From the NCBI RefSeq assembly GCF_900608595.1, contig NZ_UWYY01000005.1, positions 62,001 to 126,000 of the forward strand: a stretch of 64,000 nt of DNA. The letters run 5' to 3'. This stretch comes from Promicromonospora panici (GTDB taxonomy: Bacteria; Actinomycetota; Actinomycetes; Actinomycetales; Cellulomonadaceae). Positions 1 to 6,917 of the stretch are shown piece after piece. Below the pieces are notes generated by a model. That model saw only the letters and a list, made by a program, of their open reading frames with translations. It had not been told where the DNA came from and ran no database searches. The first letter of the stretch is position 1, and each line of letters begins with the position of its first letter. The translations under genes and the position numbers were made by a program.

Positions 1-806
1 TCCAGGTCGAGCTGGTCAACAACACCGACAAGCGCCTGTCGATCCACCCGCACGGCGTCGACTACAAGACCGAGTCCGACGGCAGCCCGTTCAACGACTC
101 GTTCAACGAGCCCGGCGAGACCCGCACCTACACCTGGGGCAGCCACGTACAGACCCAGCTCGACGACGGTCACTGGATCCCCGGCACCGCGGGCTACTGG
201 CACTACCACGACCACGCGATGGACGGGGAGCACGGGACGGCCGGGCTGCGCGCGGGCCTGTACGGCGGGCTCATCGTGCGACGCAAGGGCGACATCCTGC
301 CCGACCGCACCTTCACCGTCGTGTTCAACGACATGACCATCAACAACAAGTCGGCGCCGGACACCCCGATGTTCGAGGCGAACCTCGGCGAGAAGGTCGA
401 GTTCGTCGCGATCGGGCACGGCGACCAGCTCCACACGTTCCACCTGCACGCCCACCGCTGGGCGAACAACCGGACCGGGTACCTGACCGGCCCCGACGAC
501 CCCAGCCAGGTGATCGACACTCGCGACCTCAACCCCGGCGACTCGTTCGGGTTCCAGGTCAAGGCCGGGGAGAAGGTCGGCGCGGGCGCGTGGATGTACC
601 ACTGTCACGTCCAGTTCCACTCCGACGGCGGCATGGCCGGGATCTTTCTGGTCCGCAACGCCGACGGGTCCATGCCCGACGGCGCGCAGGACGCCATCGA
701 CCGGTTCCACGAGCACGGCGGGCACACGGCGGGCGCGGCTACCGAACCGGCCGCAGGATCCGCCGGCGAGACCGAGCCTGAGACAGCGGACCACTCCGGA
801 CACTGA
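1..806 (+). CDS. Two-domain multicopper oxidase (small laccase), 5' end outside window
   Basis: The reading frame is open from base 3, so the gene starts upstream; 267 codons are visible. All four copper-binding motifs of a laccase are present: HPHGV near base 45, WHYHDH near 200, HTFHLHAH near 434 and [14 protein letters not shown] near 593. The phrases [24 protein letters not shown] and [12 protein letters not shown] match my memory of the Streptomyces coelicolor small laccase SLAC, a secreted homotrimeric two-domain enzyme that oxidises phenols or metal ions and reduces oxygen to water. The visible part covers most of domain 1 and all of domain 2; any signal peptide is outside the window. 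The C-terminus ends in a His-rich tail (ADHSGH). It lies 35 bases upstream of a large secreted sugar-dehydrogenase-like protein, so the two are probably co-transcribed. The natural substrate cannot be told from sequence. Confidence 0.93.
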
Positions 807-830
807 CCGCCACACCCCTGATCACGCGCA

Positions 831-836
831 AAGGAG
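831..836 (+). promoter_or_regulatory. Shine-Dalgarno AAGGAG deciding the start of the giant modular protein
   Basis: AAGGAG lies 5 bases before ATG 842 but only 2 bases before the in-frame GTG at 839, so ATG 842 is the better start. Confidence 0.6.
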
Positions 837-841
837 CAGTG

Positions 842-3800
842 ATGGAACGGACAGGAAGACGCACGATCCGCGGGGCCGCCACCCCGCGAAGGATGGCACG
901 TGGCGCGCTGGCCGCACTCGCCGGCACGGCCCTCGTCGTCAGTCTGGCGACGGTCCCCGCCCAGGCCCAGCGCACGACCACCGACGCCGCCCCGGCGGCC
1001 GTCGCACCCGCCGCACCGGCGGCTCGCACCGCGGCGCAGGCCGCCGCAGACGTCACAGTGCTCGTGTTCCACGGGGCGCCCGCCCAGCAGCTCGACCCGG
1101 TGACGGCCGCCGTCCGGACGTTCCGGGAGCTCGGCGCGGAGCACGGGTTCACCGTGCACACGGCCAGCGACCCGAAGGTCTTCACGGCGAAGAATCTCGC
1201 GGAGTACCGCGGCGTCGTCTTCCTGTCCGCCGAGGGCACGGAGCTCAGCACCGCGCAGGAGGACGCCCTCAAGACCTACGTGCAGGGTGGTGGCGGGTTC
1301 CTCGGGGTCCGCGACGCCGCGCGCGCCCAGGACCGCTCGCAGTGGTTCACCGGGCTGATCGGCACGCGGCCGGCGGGCAACCTGCCGGACCCGCTGGCCG
1401 TCGCGGGCGTCACCGCGAGCGCCGAGAACCCGCCGAACGAGATCGCGACGAAGCTGATCGACGGCGACAGCGCCACCAAGTGGCTCGCCTTCGAGCCGAC
1501 GGCGTGGATCGAGCTCGAGATGGCGGAGCCCGTCGTCGCCACCCGGTACGCGCTGACGTCGGCCAACGACGCCGCCGGCCGCGACCCGCAGGACTGGACG
1601 CTGCAGGGCTCGGCCGACGGGACGACGTGGACCGACCTGGACACGCGGGCGGACCAGGACTTCCCGGACCGCTTCTCGGCGCAGGACTACCGGTTCGAGA
1701 ACGCGACCGCCTATCAGCACTACCGGCTCGACATCACGGCGAACGCGGGCGACAACCTGACCCAGCTCGCGGAGATCCAGCTCTTCGACGCCTCCGGCGA
1801 GGGGGAGCCCGACCCGGTGGTCCCGGTGCAGGAGGCGACGGTCAACGTCGTCGACCGCGCGCATCCGGCCAACGACGGGCTGCCGCTGAACTGGGAGCGC
1901 TCGGACCGGTGGCTGAACTGGTCGCCGAACCCGGTGGGCGACGTGCACACCGTGGCGCAGGTCGAGGAATGGGACTACGACGCCGGCGAGGGCGCGAACG
2001 GCGCCTTCCACCCGATCTCGTGGTGCCGCGACTACGACGGCGGCCGGTCGTTCTACACCGGCATGGGCGGCACCACCGCGAGCTATGCGGAGGCGGAGTT
2101 CCGCGACCACCTGCTGGGTGGCCTGCTGTGGTTGACGGGCATGGTCCGCGGCGACTGCCAGGCGACCATCGCGTCGAACTACGAGTCGGAGCGGCTGACG
2201 GCGAAGAACGCCGCGGGCACGCTCGACCAGATCGGCGAGCCGCACGGGCTCACGGTGGCGCCGGACGGCGGCGTCTTCTACATCGGCAAGGCGGCGTGCC
2301 CGTCGGGTCCGGTCGTGCCGTGGGAGGACCCTGACGTGGGGCTCGGCTGTGGCACGGTCCACCGCTGGGACCCGGAGTCGGGGACGACGAAGCTGCTGAC
2401 GACGCTCGACGTCATGGGCAACCGCGGCAGCGGCAGCGAGCTGGTCAAGAACGAGGAGGGCCTGCTCGGCATCACCCTGGACCCGGCGTTCGCCGAGAAC
2501 CGGTGGGTCTACCTGTACTGGATGCCGCACGAGTCGATCGACGTCGAGCGGCGCGTCGGGCAGCGGACGGTGTCGCGCTTCACGTACGACGCCGAGGCGA
2601 ACACGATCGACCAGTCCACGCGCGTGGACATGCTGCAGTGGGAGACGCAGATCCACAGCTGCTGCCACGCGGGCGGCGGCATGGACTTCGACAACGACGG
2701 CAATCTCTACATCGGGTCCGGCGACAGCAACTCCTCGGGCGGTTCCGAGGGCTACTCCGGCAACAACTGGACCCAGGAGTACGCGGGTATCTCGTTCCAG
2801 GACGCGCGGCGCACCGCCGGTAACACGAACGACCTGAACGGCAAGATCCTGCGGATCCACCCCGAGCCGGACGGTACGTTCACGATCCCGGAGGGGAACC
2901 TGTTCCCGGAGGCCGACGACCCGGGCGACAAGACGCGCCCGGAGATCTACGTCATGGGCGTGCGCAACATCTCGCGGCTGGCCTACGACAAGAAGAACGA
3001 CTGGCTGACGGCGGCGTGGGTCGGGCCGGACGCAGGCCTGCCGAACCCGGAGCTCGGGCCGGCGAAGTACGAGACCGCGACCATCATCACGTCGGCGGGC
3101 AACCAGGGCTGGCCGTACTGCATGGGCAACAGGCAGCCGTACCGGGACCGCAGCAACGAGGACGCGACGGTCCTGACCGGCTGGTACGACTGCGACAACC
3201 CGAAGAACACCTCGCCGCGCAACACGGGCCTGGTGGACCTCCCGCCGGTGCGGGACAACATGATCTGGTACTCGCCGAGCGGCGGCGGGCCGGTCTTCCC
3301 GGAGCGGGAGAACGGCATCCCGTCGTACGTGGACTCCGAGGCGACCTATACGCAGCCGTACCTGCGGGGCGGCGGCCAGGCCGTCATGAACGGCCCGACG
3401 TACCACCGGTCCGAGGTCGACACGGGCAGCGGCGACGCCTGGCCCGCGTACTGGGACGGCAAGTGGTTCATCGGTGACCAGTCGAACTCGAACAACCGGA
3501 TCGCCGTCACGGTGAACCCGGACACGGTCGAGGATGCCGGTGCCCCCGCGTTCGCCGAGGACCTGCGTCAGATCGTCCACGGCGGCAACGCTGACGACGA
3601 CGTCGACCAGTGGATGGATGCCAAGTTCGGCCCTGACGGCGCCCTGTACCTGCTTGACTACGGCGGCGGGTTCTTCTCCCTGACCGACCGCCAGAAGCTC
3701 GTCCGGATCAGCTACGAGGGCGGTCCGGCGACGCCGGTTCCCGCCGCCTCCGGGGCGAGCGTGCAGAGCGACCCGCTCACCGTCGCCTTCACGGGCGACC

Positions 3801-4858
3801 GCTCGGGCGGCGTCTCCTACGCCTGGGACTTCGGGGACGGGACGACGTCGGACGAGGCGAACCCGCGGCACACCTACGCCCGGGTCGGCAGCTACGACGC
3901 GACGCTGACGGTGACCTACGCCGACGGCGAGACGACGACGGTCGACGTACCGGTCGAGACCACGTGCACCATCCCGGACGACCGGGACACGGTCTGGATC
4001 GGCGACGACAACAGCGGCGTCACCAACGAAGACCTGGGCGGCTGCACGATCAACGACCTGATCCGCGACGAGGCCGAGTGGGACACCAACGGCCGGTTCG
4101 TGAACCACGTCACCGCGGTGGCCGACCAGCTCCAGGCCGACAAGGTCATCACCCCCAGGGAGAAGACGACGCTGGTCCAGACCGCCGAGCAGTCCGGCAT
4201 CGGCGCGGAGGGCAGCACCGGCTACCGGTGGCTGTTCGACGGCACGGCGGAGTCCCTCGCGGGCTGGCGGCAGGCCCCGGGCGGGAACTTCGACCTCCGC
4301 GAGGACGGGTCCATCCGGGCGCAGGGCGGGCTGGGCATGCTCTGGTACCCGGGTGAGGAGTTCGCGGACTTCTCGCTGAAGCTGGAGTTCAAGGACGTCG
4401 CCCCCGGTGACGGCCACGCCAACAGCGGCGTCTTCACCCGGTTCCCCGACCCGCGGGTACCCAGGGACGAACGCCCGGAGTGCGGTCAGCTGACCGACGC
4501 CGAGGCCTGGGTGGCGATCTACTGCGGCCACGAGATCCAGCTCTACGACGGGGCGACCGGCGAGCCCCAGAAGACGGGCTCGGTGTACAACTTCGACCCG
4601 AACGGCCTGGCGGACGCCGGCGTGACCCCGAAGGGCGAGTGGAACGACTACGAGATCCGGGTGGTCGGCCAGCAGTACACGATCCTGCGCAACGGCGTCG
4701 TGATCAACGAGTTCGAGAACTCGCCGGGCAAGGAGTCCTCGCGCGCCGGCGACCCGCCGACCGATCTGCGGCAGTTCCTCAGCGGGTTCGTCGGGCTGCA
4801 GAACCACAGCGACGCGGACGCCATGGACTTCCGCAACATCCGGGTGCGTGACCTGTGA
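842..4858 (+). CDS. Secreted modular protein: ThuA (split by F5/8C) - GSDH propeller - PKD - shared module - DUF1080
   Basis: This is a 1338-residue exported protein with a signal peptide (residues 1 to about 41, ending VPAQAQ). Domains in order: first half of a ThuA-like amidotransferase fold (about 70-180, LVFHGAP, GGGGFLGVRDAA); an F5/8-type-C (discoidin) domain (about 181-335) with the typical DGDSATKW and QLAEIQLFD; second half of ThuA (about 335-440); a glucose/sorbosone dehydrogenase beta-propeller (about 445-965; GLLGITLDPAF, HAGGGMDFDNDGNLYIG, NDLNGKILRI, DAKFGPDGALYLLDYGGG); a PKD domain (about 965-1040, YAWDFGDGT); an unnamed Cys-containing module (about 1041-1118) shared with the next gene; and a C-terminal DUF1080/3-keto-disaccharide hydrolase domain (about 1120-1338). 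GSDH relatives use PQQ; ThuA and DUF1080 families are linked to 3-keto-sugar chemistry. I infer a secreted enzyme that oxidises or cleaves (keto-)glycosides next to copper redox partners; the substrate is unknown. Confidence 0.9.
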   Translation: MERTGRRTIRGAATPRRMARGALAALAGTALVVSLATVPAQAQRTTTDAAPAAVAPAAPAARTAAQAAADVTVLVFHGAPAQQLDPVTAAVRTFRELGAEHGFTVHTASDPKVFTAKNLAEYRGVVFLSAEGTELSTAQEDALKTYVQGGGGFLGVRDAARAQDRSQWFTGLIGTRPAGNLPDPLAVAGVTASAENPPNEIATKLIDGDSATKWLAFEPTAWIELEMAEPVVATRYALTSANDAAGRDPQDWTLQGSADGTTWTDLDTRADQDFPDRFSAQDYRFENATAYQHYRLDITANAGDNLTQLAEIQLFDASGEGEPDPVVPVQEATVNVVDRAHPANDGLPLNWERSDRWLNWSPNPVGDVHTVAQVEEWDYDAGEGANGAFHPISWCRDYDGGRSFYTGMGGTTASYAEAEFRDHLLGGLLWLTGMVRGDCQATIASNYESERLTAKNAAGTLDQIGEPHGLTVAPDGGVFYIGKAACPSGPVVPWEDPDVGLGCGTVHRWDPESGTTKLLTTLDVMGNRGSGSELVKNEEGLLGITLDPAFAENRWVYLYWMPHESIDVERRVGQRTVSRFTYDAEANTIDQSTRVDMLQWETQIHSCCHAGGGMDFDNDGNLYIGSGDSNSSGGSEGYSGNNWTQEYAGISFQDARRTAGNTNDLNGKILRIHPEPDGTFTIPEGNLFPEADDPGDKTRPEIYVMGVRNISRLAYDKKNDWLTAAWVGPDAGLPNPELGPAKYETATIITSAGNQGWPYCMGNRQPYRDRSNEDATVLTGWYDCDNPKNTSPRNTGLVDLPPVRDNMIWYSPSGGGPVFPERENGIPSYVDSEATYTQPYLRGGGQAVMNGPTYHRSEVDTGSGDAWPAYWDGKWFIGDQSNSNNRIAVTVNPDTVEDAGAPAFAEDLRQIVHGGNADDDVDQWMDAKFGPDGALYLLDYGGGFFSLTDRQKLVRISYEGGPATPVPAASGASVQSDPLTVAFTGDRSGGVSYAWDFGDGTTSDEANPRHTYARVGSYDATLTVTYADGETTTVDVPVETTCTIPDDRDTVWIGDDNSGVTNEDLGGCTINDLIRDEAEWDTNGRFVNHVTAVADQLQADKVITPREKTTLVQTAEQSGIGAEGSTGYRWLFDGTAESLAGWRQAPGGNFDLREDGSIRAQGGLGMLWYPGEEFADFSLKLEFKDVAPGDGHANSGVFTRFPDPRVPRDERPECGQLTDAEAWVAIYCGHEIQLYDGATGEPQKTGSVYNFDPNGLADAGVTPKGEWNDYEIRVVGQQYTILRNGVVINEFENSPGKESSRAGDPPTDLRQFLSGFVGLQNHSDADAMDFRNIRVRDL

Positions 4859-4884
4859 TGTCCGCCGAGACGAGAGGCGCCCCC

Positions 4885-6801
4885 ATGTCCCGACAGAAGC
4901 TGTTCCGGCAGAAGCTGTCCCGTCTCCTGGCCGCGGCCGCGGTCAGTGCCTTCGTGGCACTGCCGCTGGCCTCGCCCGGGGCCGTCGCCGCGGAGCCCTA
5001 CGACGGCGGCGTGACGTCCTGGTCCAGCCCCGCCGGGGCGAAGGACCAGGCGACCGCCGAGGCCGAGGCGACCGCTGAGGCAGCGGACCAGGTGCTGACC
5101 TGGACCGCGGACGCCAGCGTCTCGGAGTACGCCACGGCCCCGGCCACGGCGACCGCCGGGGCCGCCACCGTGGTCTTCGAGAACAGCACCGCCACGGGCA
5201 ACAACATCGGCATGTCCCACACCCTGACGTTCGACACGAGCACGCCGGGGTACAACCACGACGTCACCCTGGACATCCTGGCCAACCCGCTGGACAACAA
5301 CGGCGGCCGGTACGAGGCCGAGGTCGTCCTGACCCCGGGCACGTACCGGTACTTCTGCGCGATCCCTGGCCACGGCACGATGATGGGCGAGCTCGTGGTC
5401 ACGGAGGGGCCGGGCGAGGACACCACCGCCCCGGTAGTCACGGCGCAGGTCGCCGGGCAGCAGGACGCCGACGGCGCCTACATCGGCTCGGCCACCGTGA
5501 ACCTCGCGGCCGAGGACGACAGCTCGGGCGTCGCGTCCGTCGAGTACTCGCTCGACGGCGGCGCGTACGTCCCGTACACCGAGCCCGTCGTCCTCGACGA
5601 GCCCGGTACGTACACACTGGAGCACCGGGCCACCGACAACGCCGGCAACGTCTCGGAGCCGGGGACGGTGAACGTGGTGGTGGTGCCCGCCGACGGGGAG
5701 GACACGACGGCGCCCGTCGTCACACCCGAGGTCACCGGCGAGCTCGACGACAACGGCGCCTACGTGGGGTCCGCGACCGTGAGCCTCGCGGCCCTGGACG
5801 CCGGCTCCGGCGTGGCGAGCGTCGAGTACGACCTGGACGGCGCGGGGTGGACGGCTTACACGGACCCGGTGGTCGTCGAGGAACCGGGTGAGCACACGGT
5901 GTCCTACCGGTCCACCGACAACGCCGGCAACGTCTCGGAGCCCGGCTCGGCGACGTTCACCGTCGTCGAACCGTCCCAGGAGGACACCACACCACCCACC
6001 GTGACCACCCAGGTCACCGGGGAGCAGGACGCCGACGGCGCGTACGTCGCCTCGGCGACGGTGGCGATCCTGGCCGAGGACGCCGGATCCGGCGTGGCGA
6101 GGGTCGAGTACGACCTCGACGGCGCGGGGTGGACGGCCTACACGGATCCGGTGGTCGTCGACGTCACGGGCGCGCACACGGTGTCCTACCGGGCCACGGA
6201 CGTCGCCGGGAACACCTCGGCGCCGGGCACGGTGGAGCTGGTCGTCGTCGGCGGCAGCGACCCGCCGGACCGGACGCCGCCGATCGCGTCGGCGCAGGTC
6301 GACGGGGACCAGGACGAGCTCGGCGCCTACATCGACGCCGCGACGGTGTCCATCACCGCGCGGGACGACGAGTCCGGGGTGGCGTTCATCGAGTACGCGC
6401 TCGCCGACACCGCGTTCCGCGAGTACACCGGCCCGTTCGACGTCACCGACCCGGGCGCCCACGCGCTCGCGTACCGGGCGACCGACAACGCCGGGAACAT
6501 CACCCGGACGGGGACCCTCAGGTTCTCCGTCTCCCGGAACGCCACCGACGCCTGCCCGGTCTCCGACGAGCGTCCCACGGTCATCCTCGGGAACGTGGAC
6601 AGCAGGGTGGCCAACGTCGACACCGGCAACGGGTGCACCGTCGCCGACCTCGTCGACGCGGACGGGGGGTGGGTCAGCCACACGGCGTTCGTGAGCCACG
6701 TCCGCCAGATCGCCGACCGGCTCGCCGCGGCCGGCACCCTCACGGCCAGAGAGGCGGACAGGCTGGTGCGCGCGGCCAACCGCTCCGACGTGGGGCGGTA
6801 G
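4885..6801 (+). CDS. Secreted cupredoxin with four OmpL47-type Ig-like repeats and shared C-terminal module
   Basis: This exported protein has a signal peptide (KKL-like basic start, then LLAAAAVSAFVALPLA, cut near VAA-EP). Residues about 70-173 form a plastocyanin-like domain with a type-1 copper set: His in MSHTLTF, then Cys, His and Met in YFCAIPGHGTMM. Four repeats of about 90 residues follow (nucleotides about 5420-5690, 5700-5965, 5985-6245, 6270-6530), each with DTTAP, SGVASVEY and YRATDNAGN signatures. The last 83 residues (6550-6798) repeat a module of the upstream giant protein. ATG 4885 has AGAGG 7 bases upstream; an in-frame ATG at 4858 overlaps the previous stop (TGATG), so a longer start with translational coupling is possible. 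I infer an extracellular electron-transfer protein working with the laccase and the dehydrogenase-like protein; its partners are not proven. Confidence 0.85.
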   Translation: MSRQKLFRQKLSRLLAAAAVSAFVALPLASPGAVAAEPYDGGVTSWSSPAGAKDQATAEAEATAEAADQVLTWTADASVSEYATAPATATAGAATVVFENSTATGNNIGMSHTLTFDTSTPGYNHDVTLDILANPLDNNGGRYEAEVVLTPGTYRYFCAIPGHGTMMGELVVTEGPGEDTTAPVVTAQVAGQQDADGAYIGSATVNLAAEDDSSGVASVEYSLDGGAYVPYTEPVVLDEPGTYTLEHRATDNAGNVSEPGTVNVVVVPADGEDTTAPVVTPEVTGELDDNGAYVGSATVSLAALDAGSGVASVEYDLDGAGWTAYTDPVVVEEPGEHTVSYRSTDNAGNVSEPGSATFTVVEPSQEDTTPPTVTTQVTGEQDADGAYVASATVAILAEDAGSGVARVEYDLDGAGWTAYTDPVVVDVTGAHTVSYRATDVAGNTSAPGTVELVVVGGSDPPDRTPPIASAQVDGDQDELGAYIDAATVSITARDDESGVAFIEYALADTAFREYTGPFDVTDPGAHALAYRATDNAGNITRTGTLRFSVSRNATDACPVSDERPTVILGNVDSRVANVDTGNGCTVADLVDADGGWVSHTAFVSHVRQIADRLAAAGTLTAREADRLVRAANRSDVGR

Positions 6802-6820
6802 GCCGGAGGATCGGCAGAAC

Positions 6821-6858
6821 GTCAGGAGATCGGCAGTCCGGGCTGCCGATCTCCTGAC
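6821..6858 (+). terminator. Strong hairpin terminator of the laccase-cupredoxin cluster
   Basis: A perfect 16-bp stem (6821-6836 with 6843-6858; GTCAGGAGATCGGCAG and its complement) encloses a 6-base loop and is followed by TTCTT. It begins 19 bases after the stop codon of the cupredoxin gene, which makes it the end of the cluster transcript. Confidence 0.85.
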
Positions 6859-6917
6859 TTCTTGCCGACTGCCCGTCCGGGAATTATGTGTACGGGTGTC
6901 CAGGCACCGTGCTAGTG

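Follow-up and report, generated by a model that had tools for sequence, protein, structure and literature searches.

A set of three genes for a two-domain laccase, a giant multidomain protein and a cupredoxin protein, found in Promicromonospora panici, recurs as a conserved unit in eight families of Actinomycetes. The window analysed here is a 64,000-nucleotide stretch of the 6.58-Mb genome (contig 5, bases 62001-126000), and the cluster extends beyond its left end. It is about an even proposition that the three genes encode one predicted secreted, copper-dependent oxidative glycoside-processing system (signal peptides of the three proteins were assessed by eye), for which we infer the following mechanism. 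The giant would bind a sugar or glycoside, and its propeller domain, or some other partner, would oxidise the sugar, probably to a 3-keto sugar that would then be processed by the DUF1080 and ThuA domains. The electrons of the sugar oxidation would pass to the cupredoxin and from there to the laccase, which would reduce O2 to water, with shared modules keeping the parts on one surface or within one complex. Judging from the sequences, electron transfer most plausibly centres on the cupredoxin-laccase pair. SLAC-type laccases are well-studied catalysts which are treated, in the excerpted literature, as stand-alone phenol oxidases, and the cluster partnership offers a testable candidate for the natural electron donor and the substrate class of these small laccases. 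If true, this would mean O2-driven extracellular breaking of glycosides by Gram-positive bacteria as well as a design for sugar-fuelled biocatalysis. The initial annotation of this stretch knew of no described pathway joining such parts, and none of the literature matches listed joins a small laccase with a ThuA, OmpL47, DUF1080 or cupredoxin gene.

The conservation of the gene set was assessed with a cupredoxin profile. It retrieves 378 relatives from named genomes, and the 80 best of these were examined with flanks of up to 10 kb using our own gene caller plus profiles. These 80 loci hold the closest cupredoxins and are hence a biased set; a draw of 296 genomes taken evenly from the class is less biased. 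A laccase is present in 79 of the 80 loci and a ThuA-GSDH protein in 78, the two loci counted as lacking the giant being L085, where the contig ends, and L063, where none lies in the stretch covered. Giant and cupredoxin genes are consecutive in 77 of these 78 loci. The class draw contains the laccase in 42/296 genomes and the cupredoxin in 40/296, all 40 being among the 42. Within 6.3 kb of 50 of the 52 laccase matches lies a cupredoxin and/or a high-scoring propeller, the latter taken as the 41 GSDH entries, among the matches listed, that score 626 bits or more (the next entry has 269 bits). The two partnerless matches (G212:C15 and G224:C3) come from genomes that hold another, clustered copy, and all 42 laccase-bearing genomes have at least one copy near a cupredoxin and/or propeller. 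The conserved adjacency that the initial annotation had put forward as a check on its grouping is therefore found in both samples. Beyond the class, a draw of 246 genomes from the phylum yields the cupredoxin in five, all of them members of the window's own class.

The arrangement of the unit varies among the 78 loci that could be typed. DUF1080 is part of the giant in 56 of them, part of the cupredoxin protein in 21 (Streptomyces) and encoded alone in one, which means that the domain varies in its partner but remains within the locus. The laccase gene shares the strand of the giant in 55 loci and divergent in 23, namely the 21 from Streptomyces and two from Planotetraspora; one universal operon was rejected on this ground. 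A tree of the propellers includes Promicromonosporaceae, Cellulomonadaceae, Allobogoriellaceae, Pseudonocardiaceae, Jiangellaceae, Micromonosporaceae, Streptosporangiaceae and Streptomycetaceae as well as Halopolyspora, which is without a named family. As the 21 Streptomyces loci fall on one side of a single branch (support 100/100), the two DUF1080 arrangements need only one change, of unspecified direction. One locus labelled Sphaerisporangium cinnabarinum (L042, Streptosporangiaceae) groups with Cellulosimicrobium copies on this tree and has a terminal branch length of 0, which points to either a mislabelled genome or a transfer.

By its sequence, the window laccase is a two-domain laccase, as the initial annotation had it, and belongs to the SLAC type; only its 3' part lies inside the window. 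The complete open reading frame (L009:11718-12806, or G000:C5:61718-62806) encodes 362 aa and begins with what looks by eye like a twin-arginine-type start (SRRTIL). Both Cu-oxidase domains are matched in Pfam, the closest PDB matches are small laccases (best E 3.9e-127; 3cg8, E 2e-118), and the copper-ligand motifs HTFHLHAH and YHCHVQxHSDxGM are intact. The general form of the second motif, YHCHVxxHxDxGM, is kept by 77 of 80 laccase-type proteins in the named loci, the three misses being two proteins with HSETGM and one larger oxidase of 617 aa. The family includes SLAC of S. coelicolor, Ssl1, SgfSL and CjSL, which differ from the window laccase in having been studied alone and without genomic partners, as far as the excerpts among the literature matches listed go. 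One of them is already a member of the cluster: CjSL is the two-domain laccase of Catenuloplanes japonicus, cloned with primers designed on strain NRRL B-16061 (PMC8236229), and both published primers exactly match the ends of the clustered laccase gene in the same strain (L088:4903-5940). The characterised CjSL is thus the laccase of the C. japonicus copy, and it has already been placed on electrodes (PMC10707984). In S. cyaneochromogenes, the laccase of the cluster reaches 649 bits against 4m3h and 635 against SLAC (3cg8), and an Isoptericola locus (L029) includes a laccase of 337 aa. Two-domain laccases as a group are described as having a low redox potential of 0.35-0.45 V (PMC8236229), which would suit a cupredoxin as electron donor.

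The cupredoxin retains the residues of a type-1 copper site, to judge from the ligand pattern His-Cys-His-Met, which is present in strict form in 75 of the 80 proteins; of the five misses, two differ only at the position two residues before the first His and three have a shorter His-Met loop. The Copper-bind match of the window protein lies exactly at the Pfam cut-off (21.2 bits). With a limit of E 0.1, the cupredoxin profile picks up plastocyanins, auracyanins, rusticyanins, azurins and the cupredoxin-like parts of nitrite reductases, and its matches to solved relatives are mostly weak (best E 1e-4). The weakly matched structures include 2dv6, 6tfd and 6hbe, copper nitrite reductases that carry an extra cupredoxin domain and in which a cupredoxin is paired with a two-domain copper enzyme; here, by contrast, the two are separate proteins and the partner is a laccase. 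A cupredoxin that serves as a copper store or chaperone for loading the laccase, with the giant as a separate sugar-acting neighbour, would account for the fact that cupredoxin and laccase pair even without a high-scoring propeller on the contig, as seen in three genomes of one genus where the cupredoxin adjoins two laccases (in one of the three the contig stops at the cupredoxin). We consider this explanation quite improbable, as the type-1 ligand set is complete, the solved relatives are mostly electron carriers and the linkage of the propeller is as tight as that of the cupredoxin; in addition, active SLAC has been obtained from E. coli grown with copper, according to the excerpt of PMC3918160.

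The initial annotation had correctly recognised the type-1 site of the cupredoxin protein, which also contains OmpL47-type repeats (four stretches, E 9e-103) and a C-terminal module of about 85 aa that had been overlooked. This module is 39% identical to a copy in the giant, follows the pattern CxxxDxRxTV...GCTINDLI... and is modelled confidently as a mostly helical fold. None of the solved structures found by Foldseek is a convincing relative (best E 2.1), and Pfam gave no convincing match, only scattered weak ones. The window has the module on both giant and cupredoxin protein, as do 44 of the 80 named loci; Streptomyces loci have it on the cupredoxin protein only and Streptosporangiaceae loci, as a rule, on the giant only.

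Further common tails are found in six loci with tandem laccases (G212, G258, G273, G280, G329 and G347). In all six, the type-1 motif is intact in one laccase, whereas the second has lost some of its ligands and bears a C-terminal extension. The losses are His to Tyr in four proteins and Cys to Thr together with His to Phe in two, at positions which we take to be the type-1 copper ligands. These ligand-deficient laccases may be adaptor pseudo-enzymes. Tails were compared with those of partner proteins in four of the loci. The tail of about 95 aa on the broken laccase of G347 shares 90% identity with the tail of the cupredoxin protein and 85% with the tail of a TIM-barrel protein encoded in this locus. 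In G329 and G280 the tails of laccase and cupredoxin protein look alike by eye. Giant and broken laccase of G258 both terminate in a FIMAH domain, which scores 29.7 bits in the giant and 24.4 bits, slightly short of the cut-off of 24.8, in the laccase. A second kind of C-terminal tail occurs in G212, G280, G329 and G347 and has 40% identity in one paralogue of the window genome; its profile has no match in the 80 named loci. The shared tails and modules, as seen in the protein sequences, hint at a physical assembly of the partners.

The giant was correctly described by the initial annotation as a fusion of ThuA (191.5 bits), GSDH (76.9 bits) and DUF1080 (listed in Pfam as 3keto-disac_hyd; 118.8 bits against a curated cut-off of 26.8), with the F5/8 and PKD domains and the shared module overlooked. 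Its propeller is predicted to have the fold of a sugar dehydrogenase, but its reading as an enzyme dependent on pyrroloquinoline quinone (PQQ) is weak. The top structural matches of the AlphaFold model (pTM 0.87, mean pLDDT 80) are PQQ sugar dehydrogenases of the sGDH/Asd fold with Z scores from 33.4 to 27, the best being 3a9g (rmsd 2.7, 334 aligned), followed by hedgehog-interacting protein (Z 24), which is not known to be an enzyme. The active-site His and Arg-Asn, presumably corresponding to His144, Arg228 and Asn229 of sGDH, are present in 32/32 propellers, and a Glu occupies the position of an sGDH Gln in all of them. Fold and active site would thus suit a PQQ-dependent sugar dehydrogenase that obtains its PQQ from the environment, a scheme to which we give little chance. 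The Arg pair that anchors PQQ, which we take to be Arg406/Arg408 of sGDH binding the PQQ carboxylates, is replaced at both positions in 32/32 propellers, as judged, with the Asd enzymes of the window genome as reference, at columns 8 and 6 before a PDG motif in an ungapped stretch placed by sequence (the profile-profile alignment spans domain residues 98-324 only). The match to the GSDH model of Pfam extends only over positions 44 to 225 of 332. Of 47 genomes that hold the cluster or a variant, only four have PqqE, a marker of PQQ synthesis, above the cut-off, the window genome (G000) being among the 43 without; the same holds for 0/14 named control genomes, so that these four are the sole positives. 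PQQ can be imported and its own synthesis is therefore not strictly required. The absence of the Arg pair and the rarity of PqqE together make the PQQ reading weak, and a simple PQQ dehydrogenase is weakened as a candidate for the propeller. In comparison with Asd/sGDH (PF07995), the giant agrees in its propeller fold and in some of its active site, but is without the PQQ-anchoring Arg residues, is fused to ThuA, F5/8, PKD and usually DUF1080, and has an extra His-x-Cys-Cys-His motif. Among the ThuA-GSDH proteins encoded in the 80 loci, this motif is found in the form HxCCHxGG in 78 of 79 (the exception is a paralogue in L092). The electron path proposed by the initial annotation, from a sugar-oxidising propeller through the cupredoxin to the laccase and oxygen, is supported as regards the conserved unit and a plausible cupredoxin-laccase pair, but not as regards a propeller of the PQQ type. 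As a separate observation, contigs 14 and 12 of the window genome (L103 and L104) encode two canonical Asd-type dehydrogenases with the Arg pair, yet no PqqE is above the cut-off in this genome.

In Pfam, DUF1080 (PF06439) denotes a 3-keto-disaccharide hydrolase, a meaning not given in the initial annotation, which did name the domain. Its members include the 3-ketotrehalose hydrolase BT2157 as well as CCNA_01705, for which the role of a periplasmic 3'-ketolactose hydrolase is proposed in the excerpt of PMC9007349. According to the same source, lactose use in Caulobacter depends on a DUF1080 protein, predicted to have a signal peptide, alongside a lactose 3-dehydrogenase (PMC9007349). Both facts count in favour of the glycoside-processing reading. 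This pathway resembles the cluster in that glycosides are proposed to be oxidised outside the cytoplasm next to a DUF1080 hydrolase, but differs in its oxidant, the membrane-bound three-component dehydrogenase LacABC (PMC9007349), where the cluster has propeller, cupredoxin and laccase as neighbours.

Several observations weigh against a common oxidative glycoside system. Besides the replaced Arg pair, the scarcity of PqqE and the divergent laccase genes, one DUF1080 protein, THTE_1561, is an endo-xanthanase/lichenase (PMC9007349), so that the domain alone is no proof of 3-keto chemistry. No recognised C3-dehydrogenase is among the recurrent neighbour families of the loci, as judged by eye with most families not searched in Pfam, though a Gfo/Idh/MocA gene does lie beside a paralogue of the giant elsewhere in the window genome. 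Two genomes (G258 and G273) have laccases and the giant without this cupredoxin, L063 has laccase and cupredoxin without a giant in the stretch covered, and the spread is patchy, with the cupredoxin in 6 of 198 genomes of the window's order. A different function for the unit, possible though clearly less probable, would be that of a lignocellulose module of co-regulated genes in which the laccase oxidises phenolics, the giant handles the sugar of lignin-carbohydrate or phenolic-glycoside compounds and the cupredoxin acts as a shuttle or scavenger. Regulators of the sugar type are found nearby, of the LacI family in 21 of the 80 loci and of the ROK type at G347. An enzyme that we take to be cellobiose dehydrogenase points in the same direction. 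It is described as cellobiose-oxidising and as reducing radicals and quinones, thereby supporting laccase mediators (PMC7036934). A laccase (silA) mutant of S. ipomoeae reached about 20% of the wild-type solubilised lignin and had 40% less respiration on straw, according to the excerpt of PMC5675413; this weighs against the oxidative glycoside system in that it fits a phenolic substrate equally well. The published silA primer matches in 0/295 genomes. A lignocellulose function does not by itself explain the co-occurrence of cupredoxin and laccase in 40 of 42 genomes, nor does it explain the tails common to laccase and cupredoxin proteins.

The oxidative glycoside system can also be drawn in a stronger form, which we regard as unlikely. 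Small laccases of actinobacteria would then be terminal oxidases of an extracellular copper electron-transfer chain that runs from a sugar-acting, PQQ-free propeller through the cupredoxin and the laccase to O2 and opens glycosides oxidatively, with the chain assembled on the cell surface by shared docking modules, a copper-site-deficient pseudo-laccase as adaptor in some lineages and the conserved HSCCH motif of the propeller as a cofactor site new to this fold.

The features of the locus are listed in the table below. The three genes are consecutive and all on the plus strand, which confirms the row of three genes first noticed in this stretch. A gap of 32 bases separates the laccase gene from the GTG start of the giant at 839, and the stop of the giant overlaps a start of the cupredoxin gene in the sequence TGATG at 4856-4860. 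The strong terminator that the initial annotation placed at the end of the row is a real hairpin (arms 6821-6837 and 6842-6858), with a folding energy of -55.2 kcal/mol for bases 6801-6880 and a z of -7.25. It does not appear in a consensus terminator scan of the stretch and is without a long run of T; transcription likely terminates here.

Table. Features of the laccase cluster in the window (positions of the window) and ligand-deficient laccase-like proteins of the tandem loci (positions of the named loci)
Feature	Position	Strand	Basis or remark
Laccase gene, 3' part, two-domain SLAC-type	1..806	+	full ORF starts 283 bases upstream
Giant protein, predicted secreted, 1339 aa: ThuA split by F5/8, GSDH-fold propeller, PKD, shared module, DUF1080	839..4858	+	
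F5/8 type C (discoidin-like) domain, between the ThuA halves	1409..1774	+	Pfam
ThuA domain, second half	1823..2131	+	Pfam
GSDH-fold propeller region	2159..3718	+	predicted fold matches PQQ sugar dehydrogenases, best Z 33.4
His-Ser-Cys-Cys-His motif at the propeller active-site His	2654..2668	+	
PKD domain	3731..3940	+	Pfam
Shared module 'sh', copy 1, ~85 aa	3953..4216	+	alignment; model with three helices, mean pLDDT 90
DUF1080 (PF06439, 3-keto-disaccharide hydrolase) domain	4226..4849	+	Pfam
Cupredoxin protein: cupredoxin, four OmpL47-type repeats, shared module	4855..6801	+	true start may be the ATG at 4885
Cupredoxin domain	5083..5430	+	profile
Likely type-1 Cu ligands	His 5218-5220, Cys 5356-5358, His 5371-5373, Met 5380-5382	+	sequence
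OmpL47-type / bacterial Ig-like repeats	5430..6540 (limits approximate)	+	
Shared module 'sh', copy 2	6544..6798	+	alignment
Terminator-like hairpin, 17-bp stem, 4-nt loop	6821..6858	+	folding
Ligand-deficient laccase-like protein	L116:4697-6253	-	
Ligand-deficient laccase-like protein	L112:9928-11169		
Ligand-deficient laccase-like protein	L113:11106-12350	-	
Ligand-deficient laccase-like protein	L117:1178-2434		
Ligand-deficient laccase-like protein	L110:5668-7131		
Ligand-deficient laccase-like protein	L111:6205-7788	-	

Some genes recur in the neighbourhood of the cluster. The LacI-type regulators belong mostly to Streptomyces loci (e.g. L087:5037-6092 (-); one member was checked in Pfam) and are found one to three genes past the laccase in 19 of the 21 loci, a position that suggests sugar control. 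The ROK-type gene of G347, recognised by eye, lies beside the laccases. A secreted-looking protein of about 310-340 aa is encoded in 18 named loci (e.g. L061:11428-12444). Its gene immediately follows that of the cupredoxin in 15 of them and lies beyond the laccase in the other three; the one member checked has no Pfam match. Elsewhere in the window genome, and in favour of the glycoside-processing reading, a second ThuA-GSDH giant is encoded at L010 (G000:C24:1-20000), together with a GSDH-PKD protein, a Gfo/Idh/MocA protein and a DUF1080 protein with CBM domains, all by Pfam. By eye, the same locus also contains two TIM barrels, a ROK-like gene and parts of a ribose-type (sugar) ABC transport system.

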